From contig NZ_JANQJQ010000036.1 in the NCBI RefSeq assembly GCF_028281565.1, positions 1 through 40,230 of the forward strand: a DNA stretch of 40,230 nt. The letters are read 5' to 3'. Made by a program: the position numbers and the translations under genes. Every line of letters starts with the position of its first letter. The stretch's first letter is position 1. Below are positions 5,460-33,425 of this stretch, piece after piece. This DNA comes from Seonamhaeicola sp. (GTDB lineage Bacteria > Bacteroidota > Bacteroidia > Flavobacteriales > Flavobacteriaceae). The notes beneath the pieces were generated by a model, which saw only the letters and a program-made list of their open reading frames with translations, did not search any database and was not told the origin of the DNA.

Positions 5460-5469
5460 CCTTAAATAA

Positions 5470-7186: not shown

Positions 7187-7377
7187 GGCCGTTTTAAGCT
7201 AATCAGAGTACTTAGATATTCGGAGTTATCGTTTGGACAAGTCAAAGGGTTTCCCAAATATATTTTTAAACCTACACCAATTGCAGCCCCAAAACTCAAT
7301 TTAAGTTACAATTCCTCAGATTTTTTATAACTATTTCAGATGAAAAATCTTATATTCCGAGCTGTAAATAATCCCTA

Positions 7378-18269: not shown

Positions 18270-18347
18270 CGGGATGTGGCGCAGTCCGGTTAGCGTACAC
18301 GGCTGGGGGCCGTGTGGTCGCAGGTTCAAATCCTGTCATCCCGACCA
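18270..18347 (+). tRNA. tRNA-Pro(GGG)
   Basis: This is an intact proline tRNA: acceptor CGGGATG / CATCCCG, D-arm around AGTCCGGTTAGCGT, anticodon stem CACGG/CCGTG with loop CTGGGGG (anticodon GGG), T-arm CAGG-TTCAAAT-CCTG, discriminator A and encoded CCA at 18345-18347. An integrase gene starts ~220 bases downstream, so its 3' end is the probable insertion site of the mobilizable element. Confidence 0.95.
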
Positions 18348-18567
18348 AAAGGGTATTAAAAGAAATCTTTTAATATGTAATTAAATGAAAACCAGTGAAA
18401 TACATTTTTGCTGGTTTTTTTTGTAATCATTTAAATACAGATTCATTGGTGTCCTAATTGGTGTCCTATTTTTAGAAAATAAATTTCTAAATTTATGGCT
18501 CGTTCAGTATTTGACTTTCGTGGGCGATTTGGCTTTCGTTTAACTGATTTATCAATTTAAAACGAAA
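18348..18567. promoter_or_regulatory. Putative attL region: hairpins, terminator, direct repeats
   Basis: A 9-bp hairpin (18354-18362 / 18367-18375) lies 7 bases after the tRNA. An intrinsic terminator follows (AAAACCAG 18388-18395 with CTGGTTTT 18411-18418, then Ts). A 12-base unit ATTGGTGTCCTA is present twice in tandem (18445-18455 and 18457-18467, the second ending ...CCT), like integrase arm sites. An 8-bp inverted repeat ACTTTCGT (18514-18521) / ACGAAAGT (18562-18569) brackets the integrase leader. Confidence 0.5.
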
Positions 18568-18570
18568 GTG

Positions 18571-19851
18571 ATGACAACAACACACACCTTCAATGTCCAT
18601 TTTTGGTTGAAAAAGACCCTAATCAAAAGCGATGGAACGGCTCCCATTTATGCGCGTATTTCGATAGATAGTATACGTGTAGATTTAAGTACAAAAGAGA
18701 CCGTTTTCGAAGAATACTGGAATTTTGATACAAAACGGGTAAAATCACGGACAAAAAATGCAAAGTTCATCAACGACACTCTTGATGATATTTACACCAA
18801 AATAAAAAGTGCCTTTAGGCAACTTAAACAGGAAGGGAGGGTAATAACACCACAATCCGTGAAGCTCCGTTATTTAGGAAAGGACAAGGCAATCTTAACG
18901 CTTAAAAACCTTTTAGAATACCATAGAGATAACGAATTGGAAAAATTAGCTCCGGGAACGGCAAAGAACTATAGCGCGACTGAGAAATATCTTAACCGCT
19001 TTATCAGAAAACAATTCAATTCAAATGATGTGCATTTAACTCAAATTAATTATTCATTTGTTGTTCAATTTGAAAATTATTTACGTACCTGTCAACCATT
19101 ACAAAAATCCCGTCCCTTGAATAATAACGGAATCATGAAGCATCTGGAGCGTTTACAAAAGCAGACTACTTTGGCTTTCAAACATGGTTGGATTAAGATA
19201 AATCCTTTTGCACTCTATGAACTGAAATTTGAAGAGTTCGATTGTCCATTTCTGGAACAGCATGAAATTGATATAATGTCCAAGCTTTCCATACCCCATG
19301 AGAGTATGTGTTTGGTAAGGGATGTATTCATTTTTGCTTGTTATACCGGCTTATGTTATATCGAGGTAAAGAACCTAAAAAAGAATCATATTGTTTCTGG
19401 TGTAGATGGAGAACAATGGATAATGGTTAGGAGACAAAAGTCAGGGACGCCTGTTAAGCTGCCTTTGTTAGATGAAGCCAAAGAAATTCTAGAGAAGTAT
19501 GCGGATTTTCCTTGCGCTGAAAATGACTATTCTCTGTTACACGTTTTCAGTGACCAAAAAATCAATCAATACCTTAAAAAAATTGCCAGACTCTGTAAGA
19601 TAGAGAAAAACCTAACTTTCCATGTTGCACGACATACGTTTGCCACTACAATAGCACTTTTAAATGATGTCCCCATTGAAACAGTTTCAAAAATGTTAGG
19701 GCATACCAAATTATCAACAACGCAAAAATATGCCAGAGTGGTCGAAAAGAAAATCAGTAAGGATATGGCTCAATTAAAGGACAAATTGAAACGTTCAAAA
19801 CAGAGTTTTCAATACAAAGAAACAGATTACGACCATTTAAAAATAGTTTAA
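18571..19851 (+). CDS. Tyrosine recombinase / integrase
   Basis: This site-specific recombinase (~426 residues) integrates and excises the element. The N-terminal arm-binding domain of the Bacteroidota type spans ~1-95 (TFNVHFWLKKTLIKSDGTAP), the SAM-like core-binding domain ~110-205 and the catalytic domain ~225-400. Counting from the GTG at 18568: H352-x2-R355-H356, LGH379 and nucleophile Y388 are present. The first catalytic Arg is replaced by Cys263 (YTGLCYIEV); loss of that Arg is also known in Bacteroides IntDOT. The frame opens at a GTG immediately followed by ATG; the ATG at 18571 is chosen. Confidence 0.93.
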   Translation: MTTTHTFNVHFWLKKTLIKSDGTAPIYARISIDSIRVDLSTKETVFEEYWNFDTKRVKSRTKNAKFINDTLDDIYTKIKSAFRQLKQEGRVITPQSVKLRYLGKDKAILTLKNLLEYHRDNELEKLAPGTAKNYSATEKYLNRFIRKQFNSNDVHLTQINYSFVVQFENYLRTCQPLQKSRPLNNNGIMKHLERLQKQTTLAFKHGWIKINPFALYELKFEEFDCPFLEQHEIDIMSKLSIPHESMCLVRDVFIFACYTGLCYIEVKNLKKNHIVSGVDGEQWIMVRRQKSGTPVKLPLLDEAKEILEKYADFPCAENDYSLLHVFSDQKINQYLKKIARLCKIEKNLTFHVARHTFATTIALLNDVPIETVSKMLGHTKLSTTQKYARVVEKKISKDMAQLKDKLKRSKQSFQYKETDYDHLKIV

Positions 19852-19898
19852 AGAGACTCTTTGTGAAGCTATTATTATTCAATACCCCCGCAATTTAA

Positions 19899-20041
19899 AC
19901 TCGTAAAATACTTCCATCAAAAGACTACGGCATAAAGCCATTTCATTATCCTTTGCTTATTTATTCCGTTTCCTTTTGAGCCAAGATTTTAGCTTCCGTT
20001 TGGTTTCTGCTCAAATATTGTTTAATCAAAATTTGAGTATT
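19899..20041 (+). repeat. Duplicated leader, copy 1 (upstream of parB-like gene)
   Basis: These 143 bases match 21926-22068 at roughly 90% identity without gaps, and both copies end directly at an ATG. A short hairpin TTTGG...CTCAAA (19999-20015) is kept in copy 2 as a stronger TTTGGG/CCCAAA stem. It contains no reading frame of its own. It is probably a promoter plus regulatory 5' leader shared by two operons of the element. Confidence 0.8.
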
Positions 20042-21826
20042 ATGACAACAAAAACAAGTACTAGAAACAAGCGTAGTAGAACAAATACTGCCCAGACTGA
20101 AGTGAACGGAAAGATTAATTCTACACTTCAAATTCAGAACCTACCTATTGGTAAAATCAAGCCTGACCCAAATCAACCAAGAAAGACCTTTGATGAGAAG
20201 CAATTGATTGAACTTTCCCAAAGTATCAAAAAACATGGTGTGTTACAGCCTATCACCGTAAGGCCAATGAACGGTCATTACTTGATTGTGATGGGTGAAC
20301 GTCGCTATCGAGCTAATAAATTGGCAGATAACAAAAGCATTCCATGCATTGTTAAAGCATTTGAGGATAACGATGTGTTGGAAGTTCAAATTATAGAGAA
20401 CTTACAAAGAAAGGATGTTGAGCCTACCGAAGAAGCTGAAGCAATAGCCTATCTAAGCGATAAATATGCACCATCTGAAATTGCACAACGATTGGGCAGA
20501 ACAGACAATTTTATCAGACAGCGGTTAAAATTGGCAGGCCTTATCGAAGGGTTTAAGCATTTTGTGCGAAATGGTGAAATGACTATCTCGCTCGGTGTTG
20601 GTGTAGCGTTGTTTGAACCAGAAGAACAGCAGATGATGCTGGAAGCTATGGGCGATGATTTTAACGCTCACCAAATCAATAGAATGATAAAGAACCAGTC
20701 TTATGATTTATTGATGGCTCCCTTTGATGTTGATGACAAAACATTAATAGCAAAAGTAGGGGATTGTAATAGCTGTCCATTCAATGCAGCAAATCAGGGC
20801 AATTTATTTGGTGAAGGAAAAATGGTCTGCACAAAAGCATCCTGTTACGAAGCCAAGAAAAACAAATGCTTCCTTGACTTAATTGAGCAATCAAAACGAG
20901 AGAATATCATATTGATTCCAGAAATTATGAAGTACTGGGCAGATGACGAAAACAATCAATTGATTATTTCCCAACTGGAAAAAAAGGGTTTCAAGGTTTA
21001 CCTTTTGGATGATGTTGAAGTGATAGAAAATCCGATTGAGCCGACAATGGCATCTATTAAGAAGGAATACGAACATTACGATTATTCCGAAGATGACCTA
21101 AAGGTGGAATTGAGCGAAGCGAAAAAGGAATATGAAGAAGAATTGAAAGTATTCCAGTCTGCCAAATCCAATGGTTTTGTAAATGCTATTGTTTTCCATG
21201 CTTCAACCTATAAGCACAGAGAAGTGTTTGTTAAGATTATTGAAAGGCCTGAGAGCGGGTCAGCAACACATTTGGCACCTTTGACTGAAAGAAAAATGGC
21301 TGATTGCTCGCCTGAAGAACAAATCATCAAAATCAATGAAAGAGAAATACGCAAGAAGCAAATCGAGAACAACAAGCAGTTTGAAGAAATTGTAGGAATG
21401 ATTAAGGAAACCAAGTATATCGATACCAAGAAAGCCCTGTCCACGGATGAAATGGTTGCCTTTTCTATCTCACTCTTTGAGAACAATGTGGATTATATGA
21501 GTCAACAAAAACACTTCCCGAACATCTTTGGTAAGACTTCGAAGATGAACAAGGTTCAAGTCGTAGAACATTTCAAGAAGAATTTCAAAAAGGAAATCTT
21601 TCACAAGTTGATACGCTATATCCTCACCAAGCAAGTACACTTTGGAGAGAGCAATCACGTAAATAATCTCACCAATATTTCATTCTATAACGCCATGCAG
21701 GGGTATTACAAAACTAAAATTGCAAGTATTGAAAAAGGATATGCCGAAGACCGTGTCAAGCGGGAGGCCCGTTTGAAAGAGCGTATAAAGATACTTGAAG
21801 TAAAGATTCAGGCTCTTGAAGTCTAG
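20042..21826 (+). CDS. parB: ParB/RepB/Spo0J-family protein
   Basis: This 594-residue DNA-binding protein is ParB-like. It has an N-terminal nuclease/CTP-binding domain (LPIGKIKPDPNQPRKTFDEK, GERRYRA, ENLQRKDVEPTEEAEA) and a helix-turn-helix (APSEIAQRLGRTDNFIRQRL). A four-Cys cluster (CNSCPF...MVCTKASCYEA) follows, possibly metal-binding, then a long charged, partly coiled C-terminal half. It is much longer than chromosomal ParB (~300) and typical of ParB-like proteins on Bacteroidota mobile elements; no ParA is encoded nearby. The frame is open from a TTG at 19976, but those extra codons lie in the duplicated leader and are shared with an unrelated gene, so the ATG at 20042 is the real start. 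Confidence 0.88.
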   Translation: MTTKTSTRNKRSRTNTAQTEVNGKINSTLQIQNLPIGKIKPDPNQPRKTFDEKQLIELSQSIKKHGVLQPITVRPMNGHYLIVMGERRYRANKLADNKSIPCIVKAFEDNDVLEVQIIENLQRKDVEPTEEAEAIAYLSDKYAPSEIAQRLGRTDNFIRQRLKLAGLIEGFKHFVRNGEMTISLGVGVALFEPEEQQMMLEAMGDDFNAHQINRMIKNQSYDLLMAPFDVDDKTLIAKVGDCNSCPFNAANQGNLFGEGKMVCTKASCYEAKKNKCFLDLIEQSKRENIILIPEIMKYWADDENNQLIISQLEKKGFKVYLLDDVEVIENPIEPTMASIKKEYEHYDYSEDDLKVELSEAKKEYEEELKVFQSAKSNGFVNAIVFHASTYKHREVFVKIIERPESGSATHLAPLTERKMADCSPEEQIIKINEREIRKKQIENNKQFEEIVGMIKETKYIDTKKALSTDEMVAFSISLFENNVDYMSQQKHFPNIFGKTSKMNKVQVVEHFKKNFKKEIFHKLIRYILTKQVHFGESNHVNNLTNISFYNAMQGYYKTKIASIEKGYAEDRVKREARLKERIKILEVKIQALEV

Positions 21827-21925
21827 TTTTTGTTGTTCAAGATAGAGTTGGCATTTATGTCGGCTCTTCTTTTTTTTATTCAAACTAGGGTTAGGGGAAA
21901 TCAATCAATATGGGTACAAAGGTAA

Positions 21926-22068
21926 ACCCGTAAAATACTCCCATCAAAAGACTACGGCATAAAGTCAATCCATTATCCATTGCTTATTTATTCCGTTTCC
22001 TTTTGAGCTGAGATTTTAGCTTCCGTTTGGGTGTTGCCCAAATATTGTTTAACCAAAATTTTAGCATT
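21926..22068 (+). repeat. Duplicated leader, copy 2
   Basis: This is the second copy of the leader at 19899-20041, ending at the ATG of a 55-residue gene. The hairpin TTTGGG (22026-22031) / CCCAAA (22037-22042) is perfect here. Confidence 0.8.
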
Positions 22069-22236
22069 ATGAAACAAATTCCATGCACTCCAGAAATCAC
22101 ATTACAAGAAGCAGAAGCACACTATGATTCAAGTAGAATCAAATACAACATAGAAGGTGCAGAAAGCCATCTCGCTTATTACAGGGATAAACACCCAGAT
22201 TACTACACCATATTGTTAAATAAATATCAAAAATAA
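22069..22236 (+). CDS. Small protein of unknown function
   Basis: This 55-residue protein begins MKQIPCTPEITLQEAEAHYD and is rich in Tyr and charged residues; no family recognised. An upstream TTG (22027) would add 14 residues reading QILFNQNFSIM, nearly the same as the false N-terminus of the ParB-like gene. That stretch is translated leader, not protein. The gene is 12 bases ahead of the next gene, forming a two-gene operon. Confidence 0.65.
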   Translation: MKQIPCTPEITLQEAEAHYDSSRIKYNIEGAESHLAYYRDKHPDYYTILLNKYQK

Positions 22237-22248
22237 AAACCAAACACT

Positions 22249-22812
22249 ATGAAAACTCCCGATAAATTGCAGCTTGATTTTGGCTTTGACATAAAGCCTA
22301 TGGACAAATTAAACCCTAAAACCATTACCAAAAAGAAGGCTCAGAAAAACTTTGTTTTTGAATTTATGGATTGCCTCAGCAGTCCAGTGATTGTTTATGA
22401 ATCTCCCTGGAAAGACGATATCCCTAAAGATTTGTTGGGTAAGATTACTATGAGCCGATTACTGTGCCTTATGAAAAATGAAGAAATGGCATCGATAACC
22501 GAAGTTGTAGCCTATATGATGCCCAGGACTTTTGAAGCACCAATGCATTCCGAATGGGTGAATATCTATACTTGGTGTGGACTTCAATATGCCAATATGT
22601 TTAATAATTCAGAGAAAAGGGAAGATATGGTTACCGCAATGCAAGAGATAGCACCAACTGAACTTTCCAGTTATGAGCAGGGACTTTTAAAGGGTTTAAG
22701 AATTTGGATTTATAACCAAAGACGCAAGGCCTTGAAAGTAAGGTTAAAGAACGATAGAAATAAAGAAATTAAATTAGAGCGTAATGCACAGGGAAGTCTC
22801 TTTGATAATTAA
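22249..22812 (+). CDS. Unknown mobile-element protein
   Basis: This 187-residue, probably soluble protein has no signal peptide or membrane segment. It starts MKTPDKLQLDFGFDIKPMDK, has a central region SPWKDDIPKDLLGKITMSRL and a Trp/Tyr/Met-rich helix-like segment SEWVNIYTWCGLQYANMF, and ends in a basic stretch and QGSLFDN. I do not recognise the family. Its place between parB and ssb suggests a role in element maintenance or DNA processing, without direct evidence. Confidence 0.75.
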   Translation: MKTPDKLQLDFGFDIKPMDKLNPKTITKKKAQKNFVFEFMDCLSSPVIVYESPWKDDIPKDLLGKITMSRLLCLMKNEEMASITEVVAYMMPRTFEAPMHSEWVNIYTWCGLQYANMFNNSEKREDMVTAMQEIAPTELSSYEQGLLKGLRIWIYNQRRKALKVRLKNDRNKEIKLERNAQGSLFDN

Positions 22813-22952
22813 TATTTTAAGGACAAAGAGGAAGCATTATTTAACCCGTTCAGCACATTCCCTTTCATTTCGTTGCCCTACATTTCAGGAAAAGCGCTTC
22901 ACTACAGACATCTTGGACACAATCCCCAATTTTAACTTTCCATTCCATTAAC

Positions 22953-23454
22953 CCTTCCCGATACTCTGGGAAGGAACACTTCATTCCCTAGCTAAAATTG
23001 TGAATTAAGTCCGCTTTTCATCGGAAAGCCAACACTTCGGTTTTCTTAACAGAATTTACGGTAAGCCCTTCTTGGGGCTTTCTCGAAAATCCTTAAAAAC
23101 CGAACCGCTGTCTTACACATTTTAAGGGGTCTATAATGGATAAAGCCTTTATTGTTTTTCGGTGCGTCGAAAAACAAGCACGACATAACCAATGCTAATT
23201 TAACCATGGCCACTTATTTCGCTTAACTGTCGGTACACTCAAACGTAACCATGTTTAAAAGCATTGCTAATGCCCTTATGGAACTTGTCAAGACCGTACA
23301 GGATTTTAGTGAAAAATAAGGTTTCTACTTCCTTGAAAATCCAAGGATTTTACTACGTCGCAAACACTCCTGATTTTACCCTAAAAGTCTTGACAAAACC
23401 CACTTTATCCATTGTGCGGTGCACGAAAGAAAAGAACAAACGCCCCTTAAAATG
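22953..23454 (+). other. Highly structured non-coding region (candidate RNA or single-strand origin)
   Basis: The gap 22813-23494 (682 bases) has no credible gene but many inverted repeats. A nested set runs 23118-23129/23443-23454 (12 bp perfect), 23135-23145/23403-23413 (11 bp), 23285-23294/23387-23396 (10 bp) and 23301-23307/23336-23342 (7 bp). Side hairpins lie at 23155-23174 and 23190-23196/23260-23266. Upstream are stems 22953-22959/22968-22974, 23013-23019/23023-23029 (one U-G pair if read on the plus strand), 23036-23044/23096-23104 and 23063-23068/23075-23080. Such an architecture suits a large structured RNA, a single-strand origin, or a replication/transfer site. The 70-codon frame at 23264 is judged spurious. 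Confidence 0.45.
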
Positions 23455-23494
23455 CAAATCAATGGGGAATTATTAATCTTTTAAATCTTTAATT

Positions 23495-23833
23495 ATGGGT
23501 ACTATTAAAAATCATGTACAGTTAATTGGAAACGTTGGTGTAGAACCAACAATTACGAACCTTGAAAGCGGAAAGAAAGTTGCCCGTTTTTCATTAGCCA
23601 CAAATGAGTATTACAAAGGTGGCAAGGGCGAAAAGCAAACAGATACGAACTGGCATACAGTTGTTGCCTGGGGCAAGACTGCAGAAATTGTAGAGAAGTA
23701 TGTTGCCAAAGGTAAAGAAGTGGGTGTAGCTGGAAAACTAAAATCCCGAAGCTATACAACTGATGACAATGAACAACGCTATGTTACGGAAGTGGTAGCC
23801 GATGAAATCCTATTGTTGGGAAATAACAATTAA
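23495..23833 (+). CDS. ssb: Single-stranded DNA-binding protein (element-encoded)
   Basis: This 112-residue OB-fold SSB shows the N-terminal NHVQLIGNVGVEPTI, FSLATNEYY, TNWHTVVAWGKTAEIVEKYV, and KGKEVGVAGKLKSRSYTTDD. It stops right after the OB fold (DEILLLGNNN) and lacks the acidic C-terminal tail by which chromosomal SSB recruits partner proteins. It would coat the single strand during transfer or rolling-circle replication. A terminator follows. Confidence 0.93.
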   Translation: MGTIKNHVQLIGNVGVEPTITNLESGKKVARFSLATNEYYKGGKGEKQTDTNWHTVVAWGKTAEIVEKYVAKGKEVGVAGKLKSRSYTTDDNEQRYVTEVVADEILLLGNNN

Positions 23834-23844
23834 TTCCAAAAAAG

Positions 23845-23889
23845 AAAGAGGGCATGTGCATATCTCTAAATAATAACTGCCCTCTTTTT
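23845..23889 (+). terminator. ssb terminator
   Basis: A 10-bp perfect stem AAAGAGGGCA (23845-23854) / TGCCCTCTTT (23878-23887) is followed by Ts, shortly after the ssb stop. Confidence 0.8.
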
Positions 23890-23916
23890 CATCATTTACT
23901 CTAAATAAAGGAAACA

Positions 23917-24360
23917 ATGAAGAGCAAAGTTAACGAAATAAAGATAAGTTACAAGGGACACCCAAAATCTCCGGTAACGATAAAAAGCTCCGTAGAAATC
24001 AGTAAACTGCTTTATGAACATTGGGATAAAAACACTATTGGCCTATTTGAGAGTTTTAAGATAGTGTTATTGAACAACTCCAATAAAATAAAGGGCATCT
24101 GTCAACTATCCATAGGCGGTATATCAGGAACATTGGTAGATATAAGAATCCTTTTTGCCATAGTACTTAAATCCCTGTCAGTGGCTATTATATTGGCACA
24201 TAACCACCCCAGTGGCAAATTACAGCCCAGTGAATTGGACAGACAGCTTACAGAGAAAATAAAGAAAGCAGCAGAACTTTTGGATATCAAAATATTGGAC
24301 CACGTGATATTGGCTCCAAATGGGGAGTATTACAGCTTCTCGGATAATGGCATATTATAA
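23917..24360 (+). CDS. RadC-like JAB/MPN-domain protein
   Basis: This 147-residue protein consists of the RadC metalloprotease-like domain only. It has E45 in FESFKIVLLN, H95-N-H97-P-S-G and D108 in LAHNHPSGKLQPSELDRQ, which is the JAMM zinc pattern, and ends LDHVILAPNGEYYSFSDNGIL. The N-terminal helix-hairpin-helix region of full RadC is absent. Such short RadC-like genes are common on Bacteroidota mobile elements; their biochemical role is not established. It is followed 16 bases later by a 65-residue gene. Confidence 0.88.
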   Translation: MKSKVNEIKISYKGHPKSPVTIKSSVEISKLLYEHWDKNTIGLFESFKIVLLNNSNKIKGICQLSIGGISGTLVDIRILFAIVLKSLSVAIILAHNHPSGKLQPSELDRQLTEKIKKAAELLDIKILDHVILAPNGEYYSFSDNGIL

Positions 24361-24376
24361 TTTAAGGACATAGACT

Positions 24377-24574
24377 ATGATTACTTTAAATTATAACAAT
24401 CTGGATGCCGAGACACAAGAATGGCTGCTTTCCAAATCCAAAGCTGAGATAAAGGAAAGGCACGGAAATGAACTTAAAGCTTTTTCAGAACAACATCAAT
24501 TGAATTTTGAAGACGTACTGTATGAAGAAGCAATAAAGAACCTATATAACTACAAATACATATTCAATATTTAA
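24377..24574 (+). CDS. Small hypothetical protein
   Basis: This 65-residue protein starts MITLNYNNLDAETQEWLLSK and is helical and charged, ending in an aromatic tail NLYNYKYIFNI. No family recognised. It sits 16 bases behind the radC-like gene and right before a strong terminator, which supports it as the last gene of that unit. Confidence 0.6.
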   Translation: MITLNYNNLDAETQEWLLSKSKAEIKERHGNELKAFSEQHQLNFEDVLYEEAIKNLYNYKYIFNI

Positions 24575-24590
24575 AAAAAAGAAAATAGAG

Positions 24591-24626
24591 AAAAAGGCCT
24601 TAGAAAAACTAAGGTCTTTTTCTTTA
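24591..24626 (+). terminator. Terminator after radC-like unit
   Basis: A 13-base arm AAAAAGGCCTTAG (24591-24603) pairs with CTAAGGTCTTTTT (24609-24621) with one G-U, and is followed by T-rich sequence. Confidence 0.8.
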
Positions 24627-24825
24627 AAATCCTATTAAGAATTTTAATATCCGACGTTCGTTTTAGCTCGTTGGTTGGAAATCATAAAAGCCAATGTCAA
24701 AACAGACCATTTGCGACCAAATCGGGTTTCATAATAAACCAGTTAAGTAATACCTTTAAAAGAAGCTGACCACGAACAAAAGCAAACGTTTCAATAACTA
24801 TTGGAATCAACAAGGTCGTTTGAAA

Positions 24826-25016
24826 ATTTTTGTCCCTGCGGGACGAAAATCGAAAAGCAAGAGGGTAACACGCTACGCGATGTTACAATACAATTAGTTA
24901 ACGAAACCCCTTTTAAACAAAGGGTTTGCAATGGTGAATAAAAAAGGGTCTGTTTGGTTTTTCACGGAAAAATGAAGCCAGCCCAGAAAAATCAGGGGGT
25001 TTTTCACGGAAAAATG
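24826..25016. other. Candidate oriT: hairpins and repeated palindrome before mob genes
   Basis: Three hairpins follow each other: 24826-24836/24840-24850 (11 bp, one wobble, GTCCC-TGC-GGGAC core), GTAACA 24865-24870 / TGTTAC 24881-24886, and 24904-24913/24919-24927 (one bulge). Two identical 19-base copies, each containing the dyad TTTTTC-ACG-GAAAAA, lie at 24956-24974 and 24998-25016, with a 42-base period. The rest of the gene-free stretch 24627-24825 shows nothing I can name. The position directly upstream of the mobilization genes suits a transfer origin or the binding sites of the first Mob protein. Confidence 0.45.
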
Positions 25017-25559
25017 GATAAAGGTTATGAAAAAGAGCGGTTTGAAAGTTTGAGCATCAAGACCTCCATTGCCAAAAAGTTCAGGGTTTTCTGCAAAAAG
25101 AACGCCAAATCCCAATCCATGACCCTGTTGGAAATGATTGATTTTTTTGAAATCAATGAATTATCGCCAAATGATAGGTTAGGAGCAACCATTACAGGTT
25201 TAAAAAGTATCATAAAAAAGCGGTTCAATGCCGTGATTGCCATAATTAGGGATATTGAAAAGAACCAGACCCAGCCCACAACTGCCATGTTGCAGGCACT
25301 GTTTGAAGAAACATTAAGAGAAGAAGATGACGAAGAAACCATCTATTTTGAAGCACCAACACTTATAAGTGAAAATGAAGAGCTGGAGTACTACAGAAAG
25401 CAGTACTATAAAACACAACAGGAAACGGGAGAGCTAAAACAAGAGGTTGTAGATCTGATAGAAAAAACCACTTACGTAAAAACCACCTTTGGAAAAGGTT
25501 ATTACCGACTGGAAGTGAGCAAAGAAGAATTTGAAGCATTAAAAGAACACCTAAATTAA
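25014..25559 (+). CDS. BfmA/BtgA-type mobilization accessory protein
   Basis: This is a DNA-binding mobilization protein, 181 residues from the chosen start. The N-terminal ~60 residues (ERFESLSIKTSIAKKFRVF, SQSMTLLEMIDFFEINE) fit a ribbon-helix-helix module as in the Bacteroides BfmA/BtgA family. The middle is basic and the C-terminal half is acidic and coiled. The frame is open from 24954 and has ATGs at 24972 and 25014. The longer versions translate the 19-base repeat into VFHGKM twice, so I place the start at 25014 (MDKGYEKERF). It is 11 bases before the relaxase gene and probably nicks or binds oriT together with it. Confidence 0.72.
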   Translation: MDKGYEKERFESLSIKTSIAKKFRVFCKKNAKSQSMTLLEMIDFFEINELSPNDRLGATITGLKSIIKKRFNAVIAIIRDIEKNQTQPTTAMLQALFEETLREEDDEETIYFEAPTLISENEELEYYRKQYYKTQQETGELKQEVVDLIEKTTYVKTTFGKGYYRLEVSKEEFEALKEHLN

Positions 25560-25570
25560 AATAGAATGGT

Positions 25571-26605
25571 ATGTACGTGACCATAAGCCCCCAAAAACTG
25601 GGAAACAATTATATGCAAAGCGTAACCGACTTTGTAAACTATCTCAATAAAGAAAATGAAGGAAAAGAACTTGAGGATATGGAACATTTCTTTAACCATT
25701 ATGGAGATGAGATTGATTCAAAAGAAGTCATAGAGCATATTGACAACAATGCGGCAAAATTAAAAAAGAACGAACCCCGGTTTTATTCCATAACCCTAAA
25801 TCCAAGTCAGCAGGAGCTTAAGCATTTAGAAAATAACCCTGAAGCTTTAAAGGAATATACGAACGAGGTCATGAAAACCTATGCCAAGGCCTTTAACAGG
25901 GAAATAGATGGAAGAAAAGTAACCGTAGATGATATCATGTATTATGCAAAAGTAGAACATACGAGGACCTTTAAAGGAACCGACAAGGCCATTAGGGAAA
26001 ATGCACCCTATTACAAAAAGATAGTAAGGCTGGAAAATAAAATCCAGCAAATAAAATCGGGAAATCTCATCGGGAACATTCAGGAAAAGGAACAAGAAGT
26101 CAAACAACTAATTGAAGAAGCTCCCCATAAGCAAAATGGGAAACTAGTAAAACAAGGGATGCAAAAGGAGGGAAGCCAGGCCCATATCCATATAATAGTC
26201 AGCAGAAAGGATAGAACAAACACATACAGTTTATCCCCAGGGAGTAAATACAAAGCATCAGAAGTCATGATGAACGGTAAATTGGTTAAACGTGGATTTG
26301 ACAGGGACCAATTTTTTAGCGAAGCAGAAAAGACATTTGACAAACTATTTGATTACAATAGAAATTATGTAGAAACCTATAACGCAAGAAAGCTTTTTGT
26401 GAAGGATACAAAAGGGTATTATATAAGCATTTTAGGGCTGCCCAATAATGAAAGGGCCATGGCTTTTAAACTTTTAGGAAAGACTGGGATAAATACCTCT
26501 ATAATGAATATTCCCACCAATAAAGTGCAACTGGCCTTGAAAGTTTTTCGAAAGTTAAAAAGGGGAACAGAAAAAGCCATTCAATCTAGTTCAATAGGCA
26601 TATAA
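25571..26605 (+). CDS. MobB-type relaxase / mobilization protein (DUF5712-like)
   Basis: This 344-residue protein is probably the DNA-nicking relaxase. N-terminal Tyr residues (MYVTISPQKLGNNYMQ) could provide the nucleophile. H205-I-H207 in SQAHIHIIVSRKD matches the metal-binding HxH of HUH relaxases, and VEHTR (H130) may contribute a third ligand. The C-terminal ~70 residues are basic. It is 11 bases after the BfmA-type gene and overlaps the coupling-protein gene by one base (TAATG), giving a compact three-gene mobilization operon. The relaxase assignment rests on motif and context. Confidence 0.8.
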   Translation: MYVTISPQKLGNNYMQSVTDFVNYLNKENEGKELEDMEHFFNHYGDEIDSKEVIEHIDNNAAKLKKNEPRFYSITLNPSQQELKHLENNPEALKEYTNEVMKTYAKAFNREIDGRKVTVDDIMYYAKVEHTRTFKGTDKAIRENAPYYKKIVRLENKIQQIKSGNLIGNIQEKEQEVKQLIEEAPHKQNGKLVKQGMQKEGSQAHIHIIVSRKDRTNTYSLSPGSKYKASEVMMNGKLVKRGFDRDQFFSEAEKTFDKLFDYNRNYVETYNARKLFVKDTKGYYISILGLPNNERAMAFKLLGKTGINTSIMNIPTNKVQLALKVFRKLKRGTEKAIQSSSIGI

Positions 26606-28059
26606 TGGAAATAGTTCAAATCATACTTTATATAGTGACACCGGTATTGTTTATTGGAACCGTTTTATATGGATTGTATCATAAAGAACAAAGTCAAGTA
26701 AAAGACAAAAAATACCAGGTGCACTTTAAACTCACCAATGGGAAATTTAAAATAGATAACCTAAGAAGAGGAGTGTCCATAATCGGGTCGGCCGGAAGCG
26801 GAAAAACAGAAAGTGTGGTCTATAACTTTTTACAGCACTTGAGTAAACATGATTTTTGCGGAGTCATCCATGACTATAAAGATTTTGAACTTACCGAGAT
26901 AGCCTATCCCTTATTCAAGAACAGCAATACCAGATTTTATACTATTTCTTTTGATATAATCCACTATAAAGTAAACCCCATTGCGCCGAGATATTTGCCC
27001 AATGAAGAAAGTGTCAATGAACTCTCCCGGGTACTTATTGAAAATCTATTGGAACAAGGAGAAGCAACAAACATCAATGCAACCTCACGGTTCTTCAATG
27101 ATGCCGTGGAAGGGTTGTTGGCCGGTATGATATGGAAAATGAGAACGGATTACGCTAAGTATTGTACGTTGCCGCATGTAATAGCACTTTTTCAACAGCT
27201 AAATACCAAAAGTCTGGTAACATTTTTAAGTTCAAACCTGTCTTCTAAAAGTCTGGCCAGTGCTTTTATCAATGGTATAGATTCGGACAAACAGACAGCA
27301 GGGGTAAAAAGCACCTTGGCAAATGCATTTAAAAAAATTGCATCGCAAAAAATGTTCATGGTATTATCGGAAGATGAAGTGCCTCTTGACATAAACAATC
27401 ATAAAAACTCTGGAGTAATTTCCATAGTCAATAACCCAAAGTATGAATCGGCTTATTCTCCCATAATCGCAACAATAATGCATACGGTCATTAAGCAAAT
27501 GAGTGTCAGGAATCAAAAATCATCATTTGTTCTAATGGAAGAAGCTCCAACAATAAAACTTTTGAATATGCACCGTGTTCCCGCCACACTTCGAAGTTAT
27601 GATATAGCCACTATATATGTTATGCAGGATAAGGTACAGAATGATATGCTGTATGGAGAGAAAGCAAGCAAAGCCATATTAAGTAATCTGTCCTATCAAT
27701 TTTTTGGCAAAGTAAACGACCCTGATACAGCTAAATATTATGAACGCTTTTTTGAATTGGTTAAAATAAAGACAACAAGCATTAACAAAGGAGTGAATCT
27801 AAGTCTTGATACCAGGATAACTAAAGGTGAAAAGGAAGTTTCAAAACGGAGGGCTGATATTTTCTTCAGGTTGAATCAAGGAGAGTTTGTGGTTTTTGCG
27901 GATGGTAAAGATAAAAGAGCTCAAATAAAACTTCAGAAAATCGAAAAGAATTTGTCTGAAAAAAATAATAGTTATTCAAATAAAGAACTTAAACTAAACT
28001 ATGAAAGGGTATACCGAGATATGGGGTCTTTGCTAAATTTATGGAGTGCAAGTAGTTAA
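26605..28059 (+). CDS. MobC-type coupling protein (TraG/TraD-like ATPase)
   Basis: This 484-residue membrane-anchored ATPase would deliver the nicked strand to a helper's conjugation pore. It has an N-terminal membrane span (~4-25), Walker A G61-S-A-G-S-G-K-T68, a Walker B-like FVLMEEAPT and a following sensor region TIYVMQDKVQ. Size and motifs fit Bacteroidota MobC/TraG-type type IV coupling proteins. Its 3' end overlaps the sigma-factor gene on the opposite strand by 21 bases. The C-terminus (LNLWSASS) shows no obvious truncation. Confidence 0.88.
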   Translation: MEIVQIILYIVTPVLFIGTVLYGLYHKEQSQVKDKKYQVHFKLTNGKFKIDNLRRGVSIIGSAGSGKTESVVYNFLQHLSKHDFCGVIHDYKDFELTEIAYPLFKNSNTRFYTISFDIIHYKVNPIAPRYLPNEESVNELSRVLIENLLEQGEATNINATSRFFNDAVEGLLAGMIWKMRTDYAKYCTLPHVIALFQQLNTKSLVTFLSSNLSSKSLASAFINGIDSDKQTAGVKSTLANAFKKIASQKMFMVLSEDEVPLDINNHKNSGVISIVNNPKYESAYSPIIATIMHTVIKQMSVRNQKSSFVLMEEAPTIKLLNMHRVPATLRSYDIATIYVMQDKVQNDMLYGEKASKAILSNLSYQFFGKVNDPDTAKYYERFFELVKIKTTSINKGVNLSLDTRITKGEKEVSKRRADIFFRLNQGEFVVFADGKDKRAQIKLQKIEKNLSEKNNSYSNKELKLNYERVYRDMGSLLNLWSASS

Positions 28060-28641
28060 GCTATTGTTACCAAACAATAGGAATAAAATCGTTTGGACTT
28101 TTTCTTGAGCACTATTACGTAATATTTTAAAAGCTTTTGATAGATGAAACTCTACACCTTTTACAGAAATATTCAAGTATTCAGCAATTTCAATATTTGT
28201 TAAGCCTTCTTTTCTACTTAAAAGAAATGTCTCTTTACACCTGGGAGGGAGGTTTTCAATTTCTCTTTTTACTATTTCAATAAGTTTATTGAGATAACTT
28301 TCATCCTCAGATTCCACAACCATACTGAGACCATCAATATATTTTTTCTCAATGGACAAAATTGATTTTTGTTTTCGATGCTGGTCAATGTACTCATTAT
28401 AAACTGATTTGTATAAATAGTTCTTTAATGAAAAGTCATCTTTTAAGTTGCTTCTTCGTCTCCAAATATTAATAAATACATTTTGAACCACATCTTCCGC
28501 AAAATCATTGTCGTTAGTTAAGCTAAAAGCGTAAACACAAAGTTTATGATGATAATTACGCAGAAGAAATGAATAAGCATCAGGGTCTTCATTCTTTAAT
28601 GCTTTGATAAGAGAGATATCGTCATTATACTGTGTCTTCAT
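28039..28641 (-). CDS. ECF RNA polymerase sigma factor
   Basis: This 200-residue sigma-70 family protein has region 2 at ~25-90 (YHHKLCVYAFSLTNDNDFAE, VVQNVFINIWRRR, NYLYKSVYNEYIDQHRK) and region 4 at ~130-185 (LPPRCKETFLLSRKEGLTNI, EIAEYLNISVKGVEFHLSKAFKIL). It is the Bacteroidota FecI-like type that drives SusC/SusD operons. It is transcribed divergently from the FecR-type anti-sigma gene instead of preceding it on the same strand, and converges with the coupling-protein gene. It probably directs transcription of the downstream SusCD locus when released. Confidence 0.93.
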   Translation of the reverse strand: MKTQYNDDISLIKALKNEDPDAYSFLLRNYHHKLCVYAFSLTNDNDFAEDVVQNVFINIWRRRSNLKDDFSLKNYLYKSVYNEYIDQHRKQKSILSIEKKYIDGLSMVVESEDESYLNKLIEIVKREIENLPPRCKETFLLSRKEGLTNIEIAEYLNISVKGVEFHLSKAFKILRNSAQEKVQTILFLLFGNNSLTTCTP

Positions 28642-28756
28642 GTGGTAATTTGATAATTATTAGCTTTGATAATTGCGAAAATAGCAAAAAAAATATTATT
28701 CAATGACTAGGGTATTCTTTTTTGACTTTCGTTATAGTGATAGATTTATGTGATAT
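28642..28756. promoter_or_regulatory. Divergent sigma/anti-sigma promoter region
   Basis: This 115-base AT-rich gap lies between divergent genes. TTGAC at 28722-28726 and TAGATTTA at 28741-28748 could form a promoter for the anti-sigma gene, though the untranslated leader would be very short. TTTGACTTTCGT (28721-28732) also occurs upstream of the integrase gene (18510-18521). Confidence 0.35.
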
Positions 28757-29935
28757 ATGTTAGGAAAAAGAGAACATGAACTTATTGTAAAGTATTTGAC
28801 AAATACTATAACTTTTCCAGAAATAGAAGAACTGGAAAACTGGCTTGATAAGGGTGGTAATAAGGAAGAATTTCTAAATTACATTAGGACGAATTATACA
28901 ATTAATTACAATTTGAGCAATTTTGATATAGATAAAGCGGAAAAAAACTTAAGAGAAATAATAGAGAATGAAAAGGGCAGGAAAAAGATTTTTGGAATAA
29001 GTAGGGTTAAGAGAGTAATGAAGTATGCGGCAATTTTAGTTCTCGTTTCCACAACTTCGTATTTTCTTTTGAGTAAAGCGAATGATAGTGAACCGATATT
29101 GGATGGCAATGAAGTTGTTGTTGAAACAGGAATTGTACCCGGGTCAAATAAAGCTATATTAGAATTAGATGATGGTTCGGAAATAAATTTAGGAAAGAGT
29201 TCTCATGTGCTAACCAATAACGCAAAAAGTAACGGTAAAGAAATTATTTATAAAAATAAATTAGCAACTGCTCATAAGCTTGAATATAATACTCTGACTA
29301 TTCCGAGAGGGGGGCAGTATTTTATTGAGCTATCTGATGGAACTAGGGTTTGGATGAACTCGGATTCAAAGTTAAAGTATCCAGTAAGCTTTATTGATGG
29401 ACAGTCAAGGGAAGTGGAATTGGTTTATGGTGAAGCTTATTTTGATGTTTCTCCAAGCACTAAACATAACGGTGCCGAATTTAAAGTTTTTAACGAGGGA
29501 CAGGAAATTAGAGTTTTAGGTACTGAGTTTAATATAAAATCCTACAAAGAAGAAGCTCATATATACACAACTTTAGTTGAAGGGAAAGTGCTTGTAAAAT
29601 ATGATGATATAAAGCAGGAATTGCTGCCTGAACAGCAGTCTAATGTAAATCTTAGTAGTAAGCATTTAATGGTGAAAACCGTAGACCTTTATAATGAGAT
29701 ATCTTGGAAAGAAGGTGTTTTTAGTTTTGAGAAAAAACCTTTAAAAGAAGTGATGACAGTTTTATCTCGTTGGTTTGATATGGATGTAACTTTTAAAAAT
29801 AAAGAAATTGAAACCATTTTATTTGATGGCGTTCTTGGAAAAGAACAAAAAATAGATGAAATATTGGCTGTAGTTAAAGATTTTGGGATAATAAACGATT
29901 ACCAAATCATTGATAAACAGGTAGTATTAGAATAA
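28757..29935 (+). CDS. FecR-family anti-sigma factor
   Basis: This 392-residue inner-membrane protein has a cytoplasmic sigma-binding N-terminus (~1-85), one membrane span (~88-106), a periplasmic FecR domain (~180-285; LTIPRGGQYFIELSDGTRVW, REVELVYGEAYFDV, EIRVLGTEFNIKSY) and a C-terminal DUF4974-like domain (~315-392; FEKKPLKEVMTVLSRWFDMD). It holds the divergent sigma factor inactive until the STN domain of the SusC-type transporter signals substrate binding. It precedes the SusC gene by 93 bases. Confidence 0.93.
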   Translation: MLGKREHELIVKYLTNTITFPEIEELENWLDKGGNKEEFLNYIRTNYTINYNLSNFDIDKAEKNLREIIENEKGRKKIFGISRVKRVMKYAAILVLVSTTSYFLLSKANDSEPILDGNEVVVETGIVPGSNKAILELDDGSEINLGKSSHVLTNNAKSNGKEIIYKNKLATAHKLEYNTLTIPRGGQYFIELSDGTRVWMNSDSKLKYPVSFIDGQSREVELVYGEAYFDVSPSTKHNGAEFKVFNEGQEIRVLGTEFNIKSYKEEAHIYTTLVEGKVLVKYDDIKQELLPEQQSNVNLSSKHLMVKTVDLYNEISWKEGVFSFEKKPLKEVMTVLSRWFDMDVTFKNKEIETILFDGVLGKEQKIDEILAVVKDFGIINDYQIIDKQVVLE

Positions 29936-29936
29936 G

Positions 29937-29990
29937 AAAAGGAAACGAAGTAACGATATTTTTCCGGACATCATACTTCGCTCCTTCTTT
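29937..29990 (+). terminator. Hairpin between anti-sigma and susC genes
   Basis: An imperfect stem with core CGAAGTA (29946-29952) / TACTTCG (29974-29980) is flanked by GGAAA and CTCCTTCTTT. It may terminate or attenuate the anti-sigma transcript so that susC is expressed separately. Confidence 0.5.
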
Positions 29991-30028
29991 ATGTATTAAT
30001 TATTTATTAACTAACACAAGGCAAATTT

Positions 30029-33000
30029 ATGAAAATTAAATTACTTAAAGGATGCTCGTTTGTTCGTAAACGACTCCCATTATTAATGATGAAAGCATTT
30101 ATTTTTTTCTTTTGTACGGCGGCATTTAGTTTTAGCACTAGTGAATCGTTTGCGCAGAAAAAAATACAAATTGAAAACACCTCTGAAATTACCGTTTATG
30201 AAGTGTTTAAGATTATTAAAAAACAAACAGATTATCGTTTTCTTTACCCAAGAAAGCTTTTTAAAGATTTTCCTAAAGTAAAATTAGAAAAAGGAGAAAT
30301 TACCTTAGATGAATTACTTGAAAAGAGCTTTAGGAATGGAAATGTTAGTTTCAAACTAATAGGTTCAAATAATATTATAGTAAAGAAAAAAGAACGAATA
30401 CTTGTAGATAAACCACAACAATTTCAGGTTTCAGGTGTCGTTACTGATCAAAACAACCAGCCCTTACCAGGAGCTAATATAATTGAGAAGGGAACTACCA
30501 ACGGTTCACAAACTGATTTTGATGGTAAATTTACATTGTCAGTTTCCAATGAAAATGCCGTAATAGTAGTATCCTATATAGGCTTTTTAACAAAGGAAGT
30601 TGAAGTTGATGGTCAATCAAATATTAATATTGCTTTGGTTGAGGACGCGGCGAAACTGGATGAGGTAGTAGTAGTAGGTTATGGAACACAGAAAAAAAGT
30701 GACTTGACCGGTGCTGTTTCTTCCGTTAAAGGTTCAGATTTGGCCTTGAACACCCCTGTTGATGCAGCAAATGCCTTACAAGGTAGAATGACAGGTGTTA
30801 GAGTTGAAGCTGATGGTTCAGCCCCAGGCGCTGAACCTATTATAACCATTAGAGGATCGGGTACTCTATCTGATGTTGGACCTCTTTATGTTATAGATGG
30901 AATGTTGACTTCTTCCATGAGTTTTCTTAACCCACAAGATATTGAGAGTGTAACAGTTTTAAAGGACGCATCAGCTTTGGCGATTTATGGTTCTAGAGCT
31001 GCAAATGGTGTTGTAATTGTAACCACTAAAAAGGGGAAATCCGGAGCGATTAGGGTCAATATTGATTCGTATGCTGGTTTTCAAGAGGTTATAAGCACTA
31101 TAGATTATGCCAATGCGGCACAATATGCCAATATCAGAAATATTGCTAATGATAATGATGGTGAGGCTCGATCTCCTGCCAATGATTCAGCTTTTGACCC
31201 AAATGTGGATAGTGATATGCAAGCAGAACAATTGAGAACGGCCTTTGTCCAGGCACATAGTGTTAGTCTATCTGGCGGAGGTGATAACTTAACTTTTAAT
31301 TTATCCGGCGGTGTAGTTGATCAAGAAGGGATTGTCAAAAATTCGAGTTTTACCAGACATAATTTTAGAATTAATTCCGCCTTTAAGAAGAATAAATTCA
31401 AAATTGATCAGTCCTTGTCCTTAAGTAAAACGGATGAGGAGCTTAATAACCAGTTTGGGGTCGAATGGGGACATTTACCGACACTTCCTATTTATGACGA
31501 AAATGGCGGTTTTTCTAATATAACGGATGCTTCTATTATTACAGGTGTCGGCACAATAGCAAATGAATTGGCGTTGGCCTCTTTAATTGAAGACACAAGA
31601 AAAAGGGAGCAAGTATTGGCTAATTTGGCGCCAAGCTATGAGATTATACCAGGGTTGGTATATAAATTAAACTTGGGGATGGAATATAATGTGGAAAACA
31701 GATTTACGTTTAGGCCAACATATGAACTAAACAATACTTCTCCTGGGACAAATGAGGTAGCAGATCTTTCAGAAACCAGTACGATAAGTAAAAATTACCT
31801 TGTAGAAAATACACTGAATTATAAATTCAATGTAGGAAAGCATAATTTTGATATTCTGGGAGGAGCAACCTATCAGAAAATAGATACAAGGATTCTTTCA
31901 ATTCAGGCCTCTGGTTTTCCTTCTAATTCCATTAGGGTAGCGGGGGCAGCTGAAAATCTTTTAAGTTCTCCATCCTATCAGGAAATTGTTGGGTATGAAT
32001 CGTATTTAGGGAGATTAAACTATAATTACGGGGACAAATACTTTCTAACTGCTTCGGTTAGAAGAGATGGTTCTTCAAGGTTTAGTAGCGAAAATCAATG
32101 GGGAACGTTTCCGTCATTGGCATTTGCCTGGAACGTAACTAACGAAGGTTTTATGAAGGAAGTTTCTTTTATCAACAATTTAAAGTTACGCGGAGGTTAT
32201 GGTAAAATTGGTTCAGATAACATTGGGGCATACGATACACAAAGTGTGTTGAATATAGCTTCAGAAACTGTTATTGGTGAGACAAGGGTGCCAGGTACTT
32301 CCCTTTCTAATGGAAGTAATACTGAATTAATATGGGAAACAACGGAAACCAAGAACTTTGGTGCTGATTTAGGGTTCTTAAATAATAGAATAAATTTTAG
32401 TGTAGATTATTTTATAAAAGATTCCAATGATGTTTTGGCTAGTCTTAATGTTTCCAATAGTACCGGATTTAGCAATGCTGTGCCTTTTAATGCAGTTAGT
32501 ATTCAGAATAAAGGTTTTGAATTTATGTTAAATTATAAGAAATATGCTAAAGATTTTAGTTTTAGTGCAACAGGTACACTTTCTACGCTAAAAAATGAGG
32601 TTGTTTCTTTAGGAGAAGGTATTACGCCAATTGCAGGTGGAGAATTTACAAATAATTCAATTTTTGGAACGCTTACACAGGCAGGCAGTGAAATTGGCTC
32701 TTATTTTGGTCACCAAGTAGTTGGGATTTATCAAACAGATGCAGAAGCTTTAGCGGATGGAAGAACGGATGCTCAAGCCGGGGATTTTATATTTAGAGAT
32801 GTTGACGGCAATGGTGTAATTGATAATGATGATAGAGTTGTTTTAGGAAGTTATATTCCCGATTTCGAATATGGTCTTCAATTAGATTTTACATATAAAA
32901 ACTTTGACCTTAATTTATTTTTCAATGGAGTACAAGGTAATGAGATTTTAAATGGTAAAAAGTTCCAAGGGCAAATTCATTATTTTGGTAATTATTTTGC

Positions 33001-33367: not shown

Positions 33368-33380
33368 TTTTTATACAATC
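33360..33380 (+). terminator. Hairpin at the susC stop codon
   Basis: A 7-bp stem GATTGTA / TACAATC overlaps the susC stop and is followed by TTTT. Read-through into susD is expected, so it probably sets the SusC:SusD ratio or protects the mRNA end. Confidence 0.4.
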
Positions 33381-33425
33381 TTTTCAATTACAGTTATATT
33401 AATTAATAATTAAAAATATTTTGAA

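Follow-up and report, generated by a model that had tools for sequence, protein, structure and literature searches.

Upstream of the single-stranded DNA-binding protein gene (ssb), in what looks like an integrated mobile element of Seonamhaeicola sp. (Flavobacteriaceae), a non-coding assembly of 613 bp (22842-23454) is made up of three modules, A, M and B. The folds of A and B are conserved and supported by compensatory changes, the strand under selection is the minus strand, which is the template of ssb, position and orientation relative to the neighboring genes are kept among relatives, and an exact standard promoter box is missing. On balance, the A-M-B assembly is probably a control element acting as single-stranded DNA (ssDNA), as a promoter and/or primer site, in the manner of Frpo but without similarity to it in sequence. 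We infer that ssDNA, not RNA, is the active form and that the fold functions as a start site. Throughout, the window is the whole stretch of DNA analyzed (40,230 nucleotides of contig NZ_JANQJQ010000036.1), and coordinates and strands are those of the window.

The mobile element around the gap

The presumed left end of the element is a tyrosine integrase gene beside a tRNA-Pro gene, and from the integrase through the coupling protein every listed element gene points right, on the plus strand. The features are as follows.

18270-18347: tRNA-Pro, adjoining the tyrosine integrase gene
18568-19851, plus strand: tyrosine integrase
19896-20031: repeat P, copy 1, a hairpin ending 10 bases before the ATG of parB (20042)
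20042-21826, plus strand: ParB-like gene (parB)
21923-22058: repeat P, copy 2, ending 10 bases before the ATG of p55 (22069)
22069-22236, plus strand: p55, conserved 55-residue gene; no named family matched
22249-22812, plus strand: p187, conserved 187-residue gene; all-helical model, no family found
22846-23016, minus strand: module A, two adjacent minus-strand hairpins
23020-23114, minus strand: module M, a long imperfect hairpin between A and B, near-palindromic, its strand assignment not firm
23118-23454, minus strand: module B, a multibranched fold closed by a 12-bp stem (23118-23129/23443-23454) and holding the nested pairs
23455-23494: spacer or leader of 40 bp from B to ssb, with a conserved AGGGGAAnTATTAATC-like stretch
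23495-23833, plus strand: ssb, the first gene past the A-M-B assembly
23917-24360, plus strand: RadC-like JAB-domain gene (radC), in the putative leading region
24377-24574, plus strand: p65, conserved small gene of 65 residues
24829-24886, minus strand: oriT-like conserved block with an inverted repeat (24865-24870/24881-24886)
24954-25559, plus strand: BfmA/BtgA-type mobilization protein (p201, MobA-like; mobA)
25571-26605, plus strand: MobB-family relaxase (DUF5712)
26605-28059, plus strand: coupling protein (MobC/TraG type)

The right end of the element is not placed, no copy of 14 bases from the tRNA end being found further right within the window. Because no type IV secretion genes were seen when the window's list of open reading frames was read by eye, the element may be mobilizable rather than self-transmissible.

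A modular fold between p187 and ssb

Four perfect arm pairs in strict nesting had been described from the letters of 22953-23454, and all were recovered by a repeat finder:

23118-23129/23443-23454: 12-bp perfect pair
23135-23145/23403-23413: 11-bp perfect pair
23285-23294/23387-23396: 10-bp perfect pair
23301-23307/23336-23342: 7-bp perfect pair

The two side hairpins in the left loop (23152-23161/23168-23177, 10 bp; 23184-23196/23260-23272, 13 nt, 85%) and the stems further upstream (22915-23012, 22953-22974 and 23024-23082) are present as well. The repeats exceed chance, as this sequence-only reading had estimated: 22953-23454 contains four perfect pairs of at least 10 bp against a shuffle mean of 0.225, and among 2000 dinucleotide shuffles four such pairs were reached once and two nested such pairs 15 times. 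Folding of both strands against shuffled controls, which the same reading had proposed without naming a strand, placed both below the controls, with the minus strand the better one. RNA folding of 22813-23494 gave z -8.36 for minus and -3.65 for plus (20 shuffles each); with DNA energies, 22842-23494 folds at -106.7 kcal/mol (z -8.23) on minus and -84.8 kcal/mol (z -7.61) on plus, a small strand gap in z for the window's own fold. Together, fold z-scores and shuffle counts rule out chance inverted repeats.

A coding role and membership in a known RNA family were both rejected. The longest listed open reading frame in the gap (70 aa, TTG start, 23264-23476) stays open to the end of B in only 5 of 43 copies, and any of the three plus frames does so in 12 of 43, which bears out the earlier statement that no reading frame explains the region. 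Rfam 15 gave no gathering-level match in the gap, and the four weak matches (E 0.83-2.7) of a relaxed search over 21800-23600 are not credible.

The extent first quoted, 22953-23454, was too small, since the unit is modular and covers 22842-23454, with bounds set by matches in relatives (A 22842-23017, M 23018-23117, B 23118-23454). In each A hairpin a symmetric internal loop carries (G/A)A(A/G)TGNA facing the same motif, which is matched at A's four places by 44, 42, 49 and 45 of 60 copies. AATGNA occurs 3.57 times per A copy on the minus strand, 0.02 times on the plus strand and 0.31 times in mononucleotide shuffles, and 51 of the 60 copies hold it three or more times. Facing 5'-GNA-3' strands form stable sheared G.A pairs in DNA, and the paired GAATGNA loops of A are compatible with such pairing in folded DNA, which we take as a lead. 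In relatives, module A is also met by itself, as tandem copies and ahead of P-parB; it may be the part of the assembly through which the fold is recognized.

In nine loci (L009, L014, L023, L085, L087, L088, L089, L091 and L092) the place of B before ssb is occupied by another sequence, B', which comprises the 388-435 bases between A and ssb, shows no B match and takes the shape of a long imperfect minus-strand hairpin. B' is not purely non-coding: a short conserved frame lies within it, read in the direction of ssb, and part of its conservation may come from coding constraint. In L085, L087-L089, L091 and L092 part of this frame seems to be repeated as an inverted copy, giving a hairpin with one coding arm.

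Covariation of the folds

Covariation among homologous gaps, a further check suggested at the outset, was found in both modules. RNAalifold, applied to the minus strand of 43 B copies (chosen from 61 distinct full copies by a 95% identity cut and removal of gappy rows), predicted 74 pairs, 42 of which have at least one sequence changed on both sides. In a 112-pair version, 58 pairs and 302 cells are two-sided against 29.7 and 84.2 in shuffles, and none of 500 shuffles reached as high, although these shuffles, like those used for A, ignore phylogeny and can be beaten by related sequences. The paired fraction of B is 93.6% and drops to 35-52% when partners are slid by 1-3 columns, a comparison that favors the unslid version, as the structure was derived from the same sequences. 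For A, the structure was taken from the window copy and compared with 60 copies, hand-picked mostly to leave out long insertions from the 79 that a 93% cut had left of 94 distinct copies; 32 of its 47 pairs are two-sided against a shuffle mean of 21.1 (0 of 500 as high), and RNAalifold found no structure in an automatic A alignment. Inheritance alone hardly explains the covariation, because many pairs occur as three or four pair types, for example UA, GC, CG and AU at one B pair.

The strand under selection

By RNA energies, minus is more stable than plus in all 43 B, all 60 A and all nine B' copies; by DNA energies it is so in 42 of 43, 55 of 60 and 9 of 9, the opposite preference being seen in five A copies and one B copy. 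In a second, overlapping set it folds better in 98 of 98 distinct B copies. As a control, the oriT regions of the same elements fold better on minus in 7 of 27 with either RNA or DNA energies. RNase P genes of the window's family served as a yardstick (28 of 30 loci, leaving out two too near contig ends), and all 28 fold better on the RNA strand. The strand energy of module M was unusable, M being near-palindromic and its hit set mixing orientations (52/84).

Wobble pairs provide a second view of the strand. A G.T on one strand is an A.C on the other, so a constraint at the level of the duplex would prefer neither. The B structure derived from minus has G.T in 8.4% and A.C in 0.9% of cells; in the structure derived from plus, where the prediction bias runs the opposite way, plus-A.C takes 3.4% and plus-G.T 0.9%. 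The wobbles of B are thus of the minus kind even in a plus-derived structure, which points to selection on the minus strand of B as a single strand. As G.T/A.C ratios, forward-strand structures gave 17.8 for RNase P, 15.9 for Frpo, 10.8 for B', 9.8 for B and 6.6 for A, and reverse-strand structures 0.3 for B, 0.9 for RNase P, 0.9 for B', 1.4 for A and 2.9 for Frpo; the reverse-strand test is clearly one-sided for B only and indecisive for A and B'. Use of the ratio to tell RNA from DNA failed, with RNase P and Frpo both high in forward structures: it detects single-strand selection and does not separate RNA from ssDNA.

Relatives, gene order and spread

Some part of the gap was matched in 106 of 397 sampled genomes of the family and in 18 of 98 relatives. 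The carriers are chromosomal or draft contigs of the window's family, and a DNA search of plasmid and phage collections with the gap returned no match. A 19-base B pattern was met in three stretches of viral contigs, none of them with a B match of 250 positions.

The order common to 40 loci and the window, parts of which are missing in many of them, is int-(A)-P-parB-(P)-p55-p187-A(1-3 copies)-M-B-ssb-radC-p65-mobA-relaxase-coupling protein. Leaving out partial hits of less than 55% of the model, identifiable element genes accompany 41 of 46 A copies, 32 of 33 B copies and all 20 P copies, and these 93 copies all share the orientation of the genes. The next feature after B (33 copies) is ssb in 28, mobA in two and radC in one, with none within 900 bp in two. 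The second set was built from named genomes found by one conserved 19-base pattern (at least 118 stretches) and comprises 98 distinct B copies from 121 loci, after removal of nine loci without a B of 250 positions and 15 identical copies; it is not independent of the first, because many copies come from the same species or contigs. In this set ssb lies downstream on the same strand in 90 of 98 (median 56 bp, range 42-1380), while four of the other eight are cut by the end of the locus and four have no ssb match; A stands within 700 bp on the other side of B in 75 and not in 18, with no room for it in five. Among 80 of the 118 stretches listed, the carriers of B include Maribacter, Aquimarina, Flagellimonas, Arenibacter, Leeuwenhoekiella and others.

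Beyond the family, the MobB relaxase family was matched in 16 of 395 genomes of the phylum at E up to 0.001, 12 of them over the cut-off. Nine loci from other families of the class were inspected, two of them only about 3 kb long. One (L121) has a full A, in a gap that folds weakly on minus (z -0.9 vs -2.4 on plus), one a weak partial A (L124, E 0.006) and one a weak P (L125, E 0.82), and six have no module match.

Two loci have unusual arrangements. L086 holds A copies at 4009-4178, 7342-7457 (partial) and 12988-13193, within about 9 kb and with none of the window's element genes matched, as dispersed hairpins or a decayed element. In L084, two B copies lie about 1 kb apart, at 4002-4342 and 5326-5668.

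The oriT-like block and the transferred strand

The block at 24829-24886 lies between p65 (or radC) and mobA and was aligned in 27 of 29 loci, two longer than 900 bases being left out. In these 27 the inverted repeat is on the mob side and an invariant core on the ssb side. Twelve columns (AGCAAGAGGGTA) reach at least 95% conservation; they adjoin the inverted repeat GTAACA...TGTTAC from the left and extend into it. On the minus strand the block reads as the repeat, then CCTCTTG|CTTTTC. MOBP-type relaxases bind to a repeat located on the 5' side of nic, and their cleavage site lies within a core resembling (T/C)C(T/C)TG|C. By this likeness, nic would fall between 24857 and 24858, which suggests that minus is the transferred strand. 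If MobB relaxases follow the MOBP rule, minus would be transferred from 24857 and the region to the left would enter first, so that the leading genes would point to oriT with the transferred strand as their template. In the accessible portions of the literature on Bacteroides nic sites, no nic sequence was found.

Since the oriT-like block lies about 1.4 kb to the right, before the mob genes, the A-M-B assembly is probably not the transfer origin itself: the relaxase-proximal inverted repeat with a conserved nic-like core is found at 24829-24886 and not in the gap. The earlier suggestion of a single-strand replication or transfer origin thus fits in kind, in keeping with the place of the assembly in the putative leading region, and probably fails as to transfer origin. 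The alternative that it had offered, a multibranched RNA, is sound as far as a large, multibranched, covarying non-coding single-strand structure between p187 and ssb is concerned.

Promoter boxes

The main flavobacterial sigma factor is described as using TAnnTTTG (PMC9723704). Of the 28 RNase P genes, 26 have an exact TAnnTTTG in the 80 nt upstream, and the same interval upstream of B on the minus strand has none in any of 57 copies, which come from a hand-listed portion of the loci without a similarity cut. Extending the interval to 250 nt on minus still leaves 55 of the 57 without an exact box. On plus, the 60 nt after B hold none in 57 copies, and B with 320 bases before and 60 after holds one in only 2 of the 57. 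Neither strand of the 40-bp spacer (23455-23494) contains an exact box, and no conserved exact box lies inside A, B, B' or P on either strand. The nearest box-like sequences on minus are TATTTTTT, which agrees with the box at 5 of 6 positions in 81% of B copies, and TGATTTTG, which does so in all nine B' copies. These counts indicate that an ordinary main-sigma promoter is missing from the expected place both for a minus-strand RNA and for ssb; in both cases another sigma factor may be used. The test loses its edge at a threshold of 5 of 6 positions, where near-boxes on minus are found for 32 of 57 B copies, 42 of 57 shuffled sequences and 26 of 28 RNase P genes. Just two of these 28 genes show a TTG at 17-23 bp. 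The stretch 18501-28100 has a single TAnnTTTG on plus and ten on minus, though the recognized genes as far as the coupling protein are on plus, an asymmetry that perhaps reflects base composition.

Proposed function and alternatives

As an ssDNA control element, the A-M-B assembly would work as follows. In conjugation, the minus strand would enter the recipient 5' end first from the oriT near 24857, and the region with p65, radC, ssb, A-M-B, p187 and parB would arrive early. Still single-stranded, the minus strand, template of these genes, would fold at A, M and B, and the fold would offer a start site resembling a double helix to the recipient's RNA polymerase or to a primase. RNA made toward oriT would express ssb and its neighbors before the second strand exists and would also, or instead, prime second-strand synthesis. 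Conversion to double-stranded DNA would remove the fold and with it the activity. The weak point of this scheme lies in the modules themselves, which, unlike Frpo, contain no exact promoter box.

A structured non-coding RNA, transcribed from minus divergently from ssb and acting in the cell as a regulatory or large ornate RNA, is the reading that competes most directly. A structured RNA would be expected to show covariation, G.T wobbles and numerous conserved unpaired blocks, as B does, and RNase P behaves alike in the strand and wobble tests. The promoter evidence divides according to stringency, as near-boxes do stand upstream of over half of the B copies (in shuffled sequence, of more), while the exact box, usual before RNase P, is missing upstream of every B copy and from the wider 250-nt interval of nearly all. 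Moreover, no Rfam family was matched, and the unit is not a single RNA gene, given that A is also found separately from B, whether by itself, in tandem or ahead of P-parB. A free RNA gene, as raised by the sequence-only reading, would be one without the exact promoter box that known RNA genes show. We consider it unlikely, and less likely than an ssDNA element. Two points shift the weight slightly from the ssDNA reading toward the RNA: B alone gives a clean result in the reverse wobble test, and the promoter argument depends on the exact box.

The same strand, polarity and folding evidence would also suit a single-strand origin (sso/ssi), where the folded transferred strand primes second-strand synthesis only and has no role in gene expression. 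Frpo itself is said, in the title of a 1997 paper by Masai and Arai, to serve primer synthesis too. The placement of the modules leads one to expect gene control rather than replication alone, since B keeps a short, rather constant distance before ssb and A is also found before P-parB, and a pure origin seems improbable to us. A function in double-stranded form, as a ParB partition centromere, a cruciform regulator or attC-like recombination sites, would be in line with the inverted repeats and with the tandem A repeats near parB; it gives no reason for the one-sided wobbles of B or for the better fold of minus throughout the 98 copies of the second set, and we regard it as very improbable. 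Several observations weigh against the ssDNA control element as well: no exact box is conserved in the modules, they share no sequence similarity with Frpo, the strand gap of the window's own fold is small in z with DNA energies and a few A and B copies prefer plus, the gap with A in L121 folds weakly on minus, B' includes a reading frame, and the A copies of L086 stand apart from any of the window's element genes. It remains the reading that we somewhat favor.

Relation to known systems

The sso of rolling-circle plasmids and of integrative and conjugative elements is strand-specific folded DNA of the displaced or transferred strand. The A-M-B assembly differs from it in being placed before leading genes and in several copies. 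Large ornate bacterial RNAs of mobile elements have a similar size and a multibranched conserved fold; unlike them, the assembly has no credible Rfam match and no exact standard promoter box.

Closer likeness is seen with Frpo/ssi of F and ColIb-P9, which also measure several hundred bases, are mostly non-coding, lie directly before ssb and come in repeated copies with the template strand folding better; the leading region of F, too, holds ssb and a ParB-family gene. Eleven of 11 Frpo copies from ten F-type plasmids fold better on the template (T) strand, and they carry little covariation because of their average likeness of 89%. In plasmid F, a repeat (89% identical copies) before ssb and before genes nearer oriT sits where Frpo2 and Frpo1 are given (PMC9849209), and both copies fold better on the template strand. 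The layout proposed here, with leading genes pointing toward oriT and the transferred strand as template, would be the one described for F, where a leading gene in the other orientation is reported not to be expressed from ssDNA (PMC9849209). Frpo is also reported to rebuild -10 and -35 boxes (PMC9849209), whereas the present assembly has separate modules (A, M, B or A, B') and no exact promoter box, and comes from chromosomal or draft contigs without a match in the plasmid or phage collections. No similarity to the 11 Frpo copies was detected by nhmmer (A, B, M and P, E up to 10) or blastn (E up to 1), and AATGNA is absent from their T strand. Because it is like Frpo in place, strand and arrangement and not in sequence or promoter boxes, the A-M-B assembly is not classed as a member of Frpo. 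More tentatively, it is possible that it represents a separate, modular family of ssDNA control elements, sequence-unrelated to Frpo and arisen independently of it, that governs early genes of conjugative and mobilizable elements across the Flavobacteriaceae, with at least two unrelated core folds (B and B') sharing the site before ssb and A as a common accessory module with paired GAATGNA loops.

Repeated long non-coding sequences before establishment genes have been described in pLS20 as EGeRS; in the part of the article available, their authors call a role as ssDNA promoters "highly unlikely", in view of their length, the absence of a promoter from the fold and which of the strands is nicked (PMC8708921). 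By comparison, the strand proposed here would suit an ssDNA-promoter mechanism, and a promoter in the fold is missing here too. For Frpo of F-type plasmids, it is documented that genes are expressed from the entering single strand (PMC9849209; PMC11541004). A 2024 survey of leading regions in Nature is described as having sought Frpo relatives by similarity and by -35/-10 boxes, and its main text has no word beginning with "bacteroid" (PMC11541004). In the open-licence literature, no title or abstract opening describes such an element in Bacteroidota. If the ssDNA reading is right, Bacteroidota and integrated mobile elements would join the known cases of expression at the ssDNA stage, by way of a different fold, and the assembly would mark an establishment region in elements whose small early genes (p187, p55 and p65) gave no match to a named family. 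With so large a covarying alignment, the idea can be tested directly by disrupting stems and then re-establishing their pairing.

Repeat P and other features of the element

Repeat P is the non-coding part of a 167-bp repeat (19896-20062 and 21923-22089) whose two copies are 86% identical, and it has 33 hits across the mapped loci. On plus it carries TTTTG-N16-TCCGTTTG, one base off the standard -7 box. By itself, P folds better on minus in 24 of 27 copies with RNA energies and in 26 of 27 with DNA energies, its wobbles fall on both strands (G.T makes up 6.0% in the structure from minus and 4.2% in that from plus), and the two P-bearing gaps of the window score better on plus (z -4.5 vs -1.9 and -2.7 vs -0.2). 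With strand evidence so mixed, P is not claimed as a T-strand element.

The gene before the assembly, p187, is conserved in the elements, with 11 homologues aligned at 52-63% identity. It matched no family in Pfam, NCBIfam, PHROGs or PADLOC, and its predicted structure is all-helical (pLDDT 72), with no match at E up to 0.001 in a fold search of the PDB; it is a candidate establishment gene. On the other side of ssb, p65 gave two weak PHROGs matches, both to families with no assigned function, and no named family, and a hairpin/T-run sequence resembling a terminator was seen on its 3' side.

Two direct repeats of 42 bp (71%), at 24956-25039 where the mobA frame starts, contain the imperfect palindrome TTTTTCACGGAAAAA and are possibly operator or mobilization-protein sites. 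Right of the coupling protein, 28039-34952 holds an ECF-type sigma gene (minus), a FecR-like gene and a SusC/SusD-like pair, named by reading translations rather than by a family search, which are perhaps cargo or flanking chromosome.
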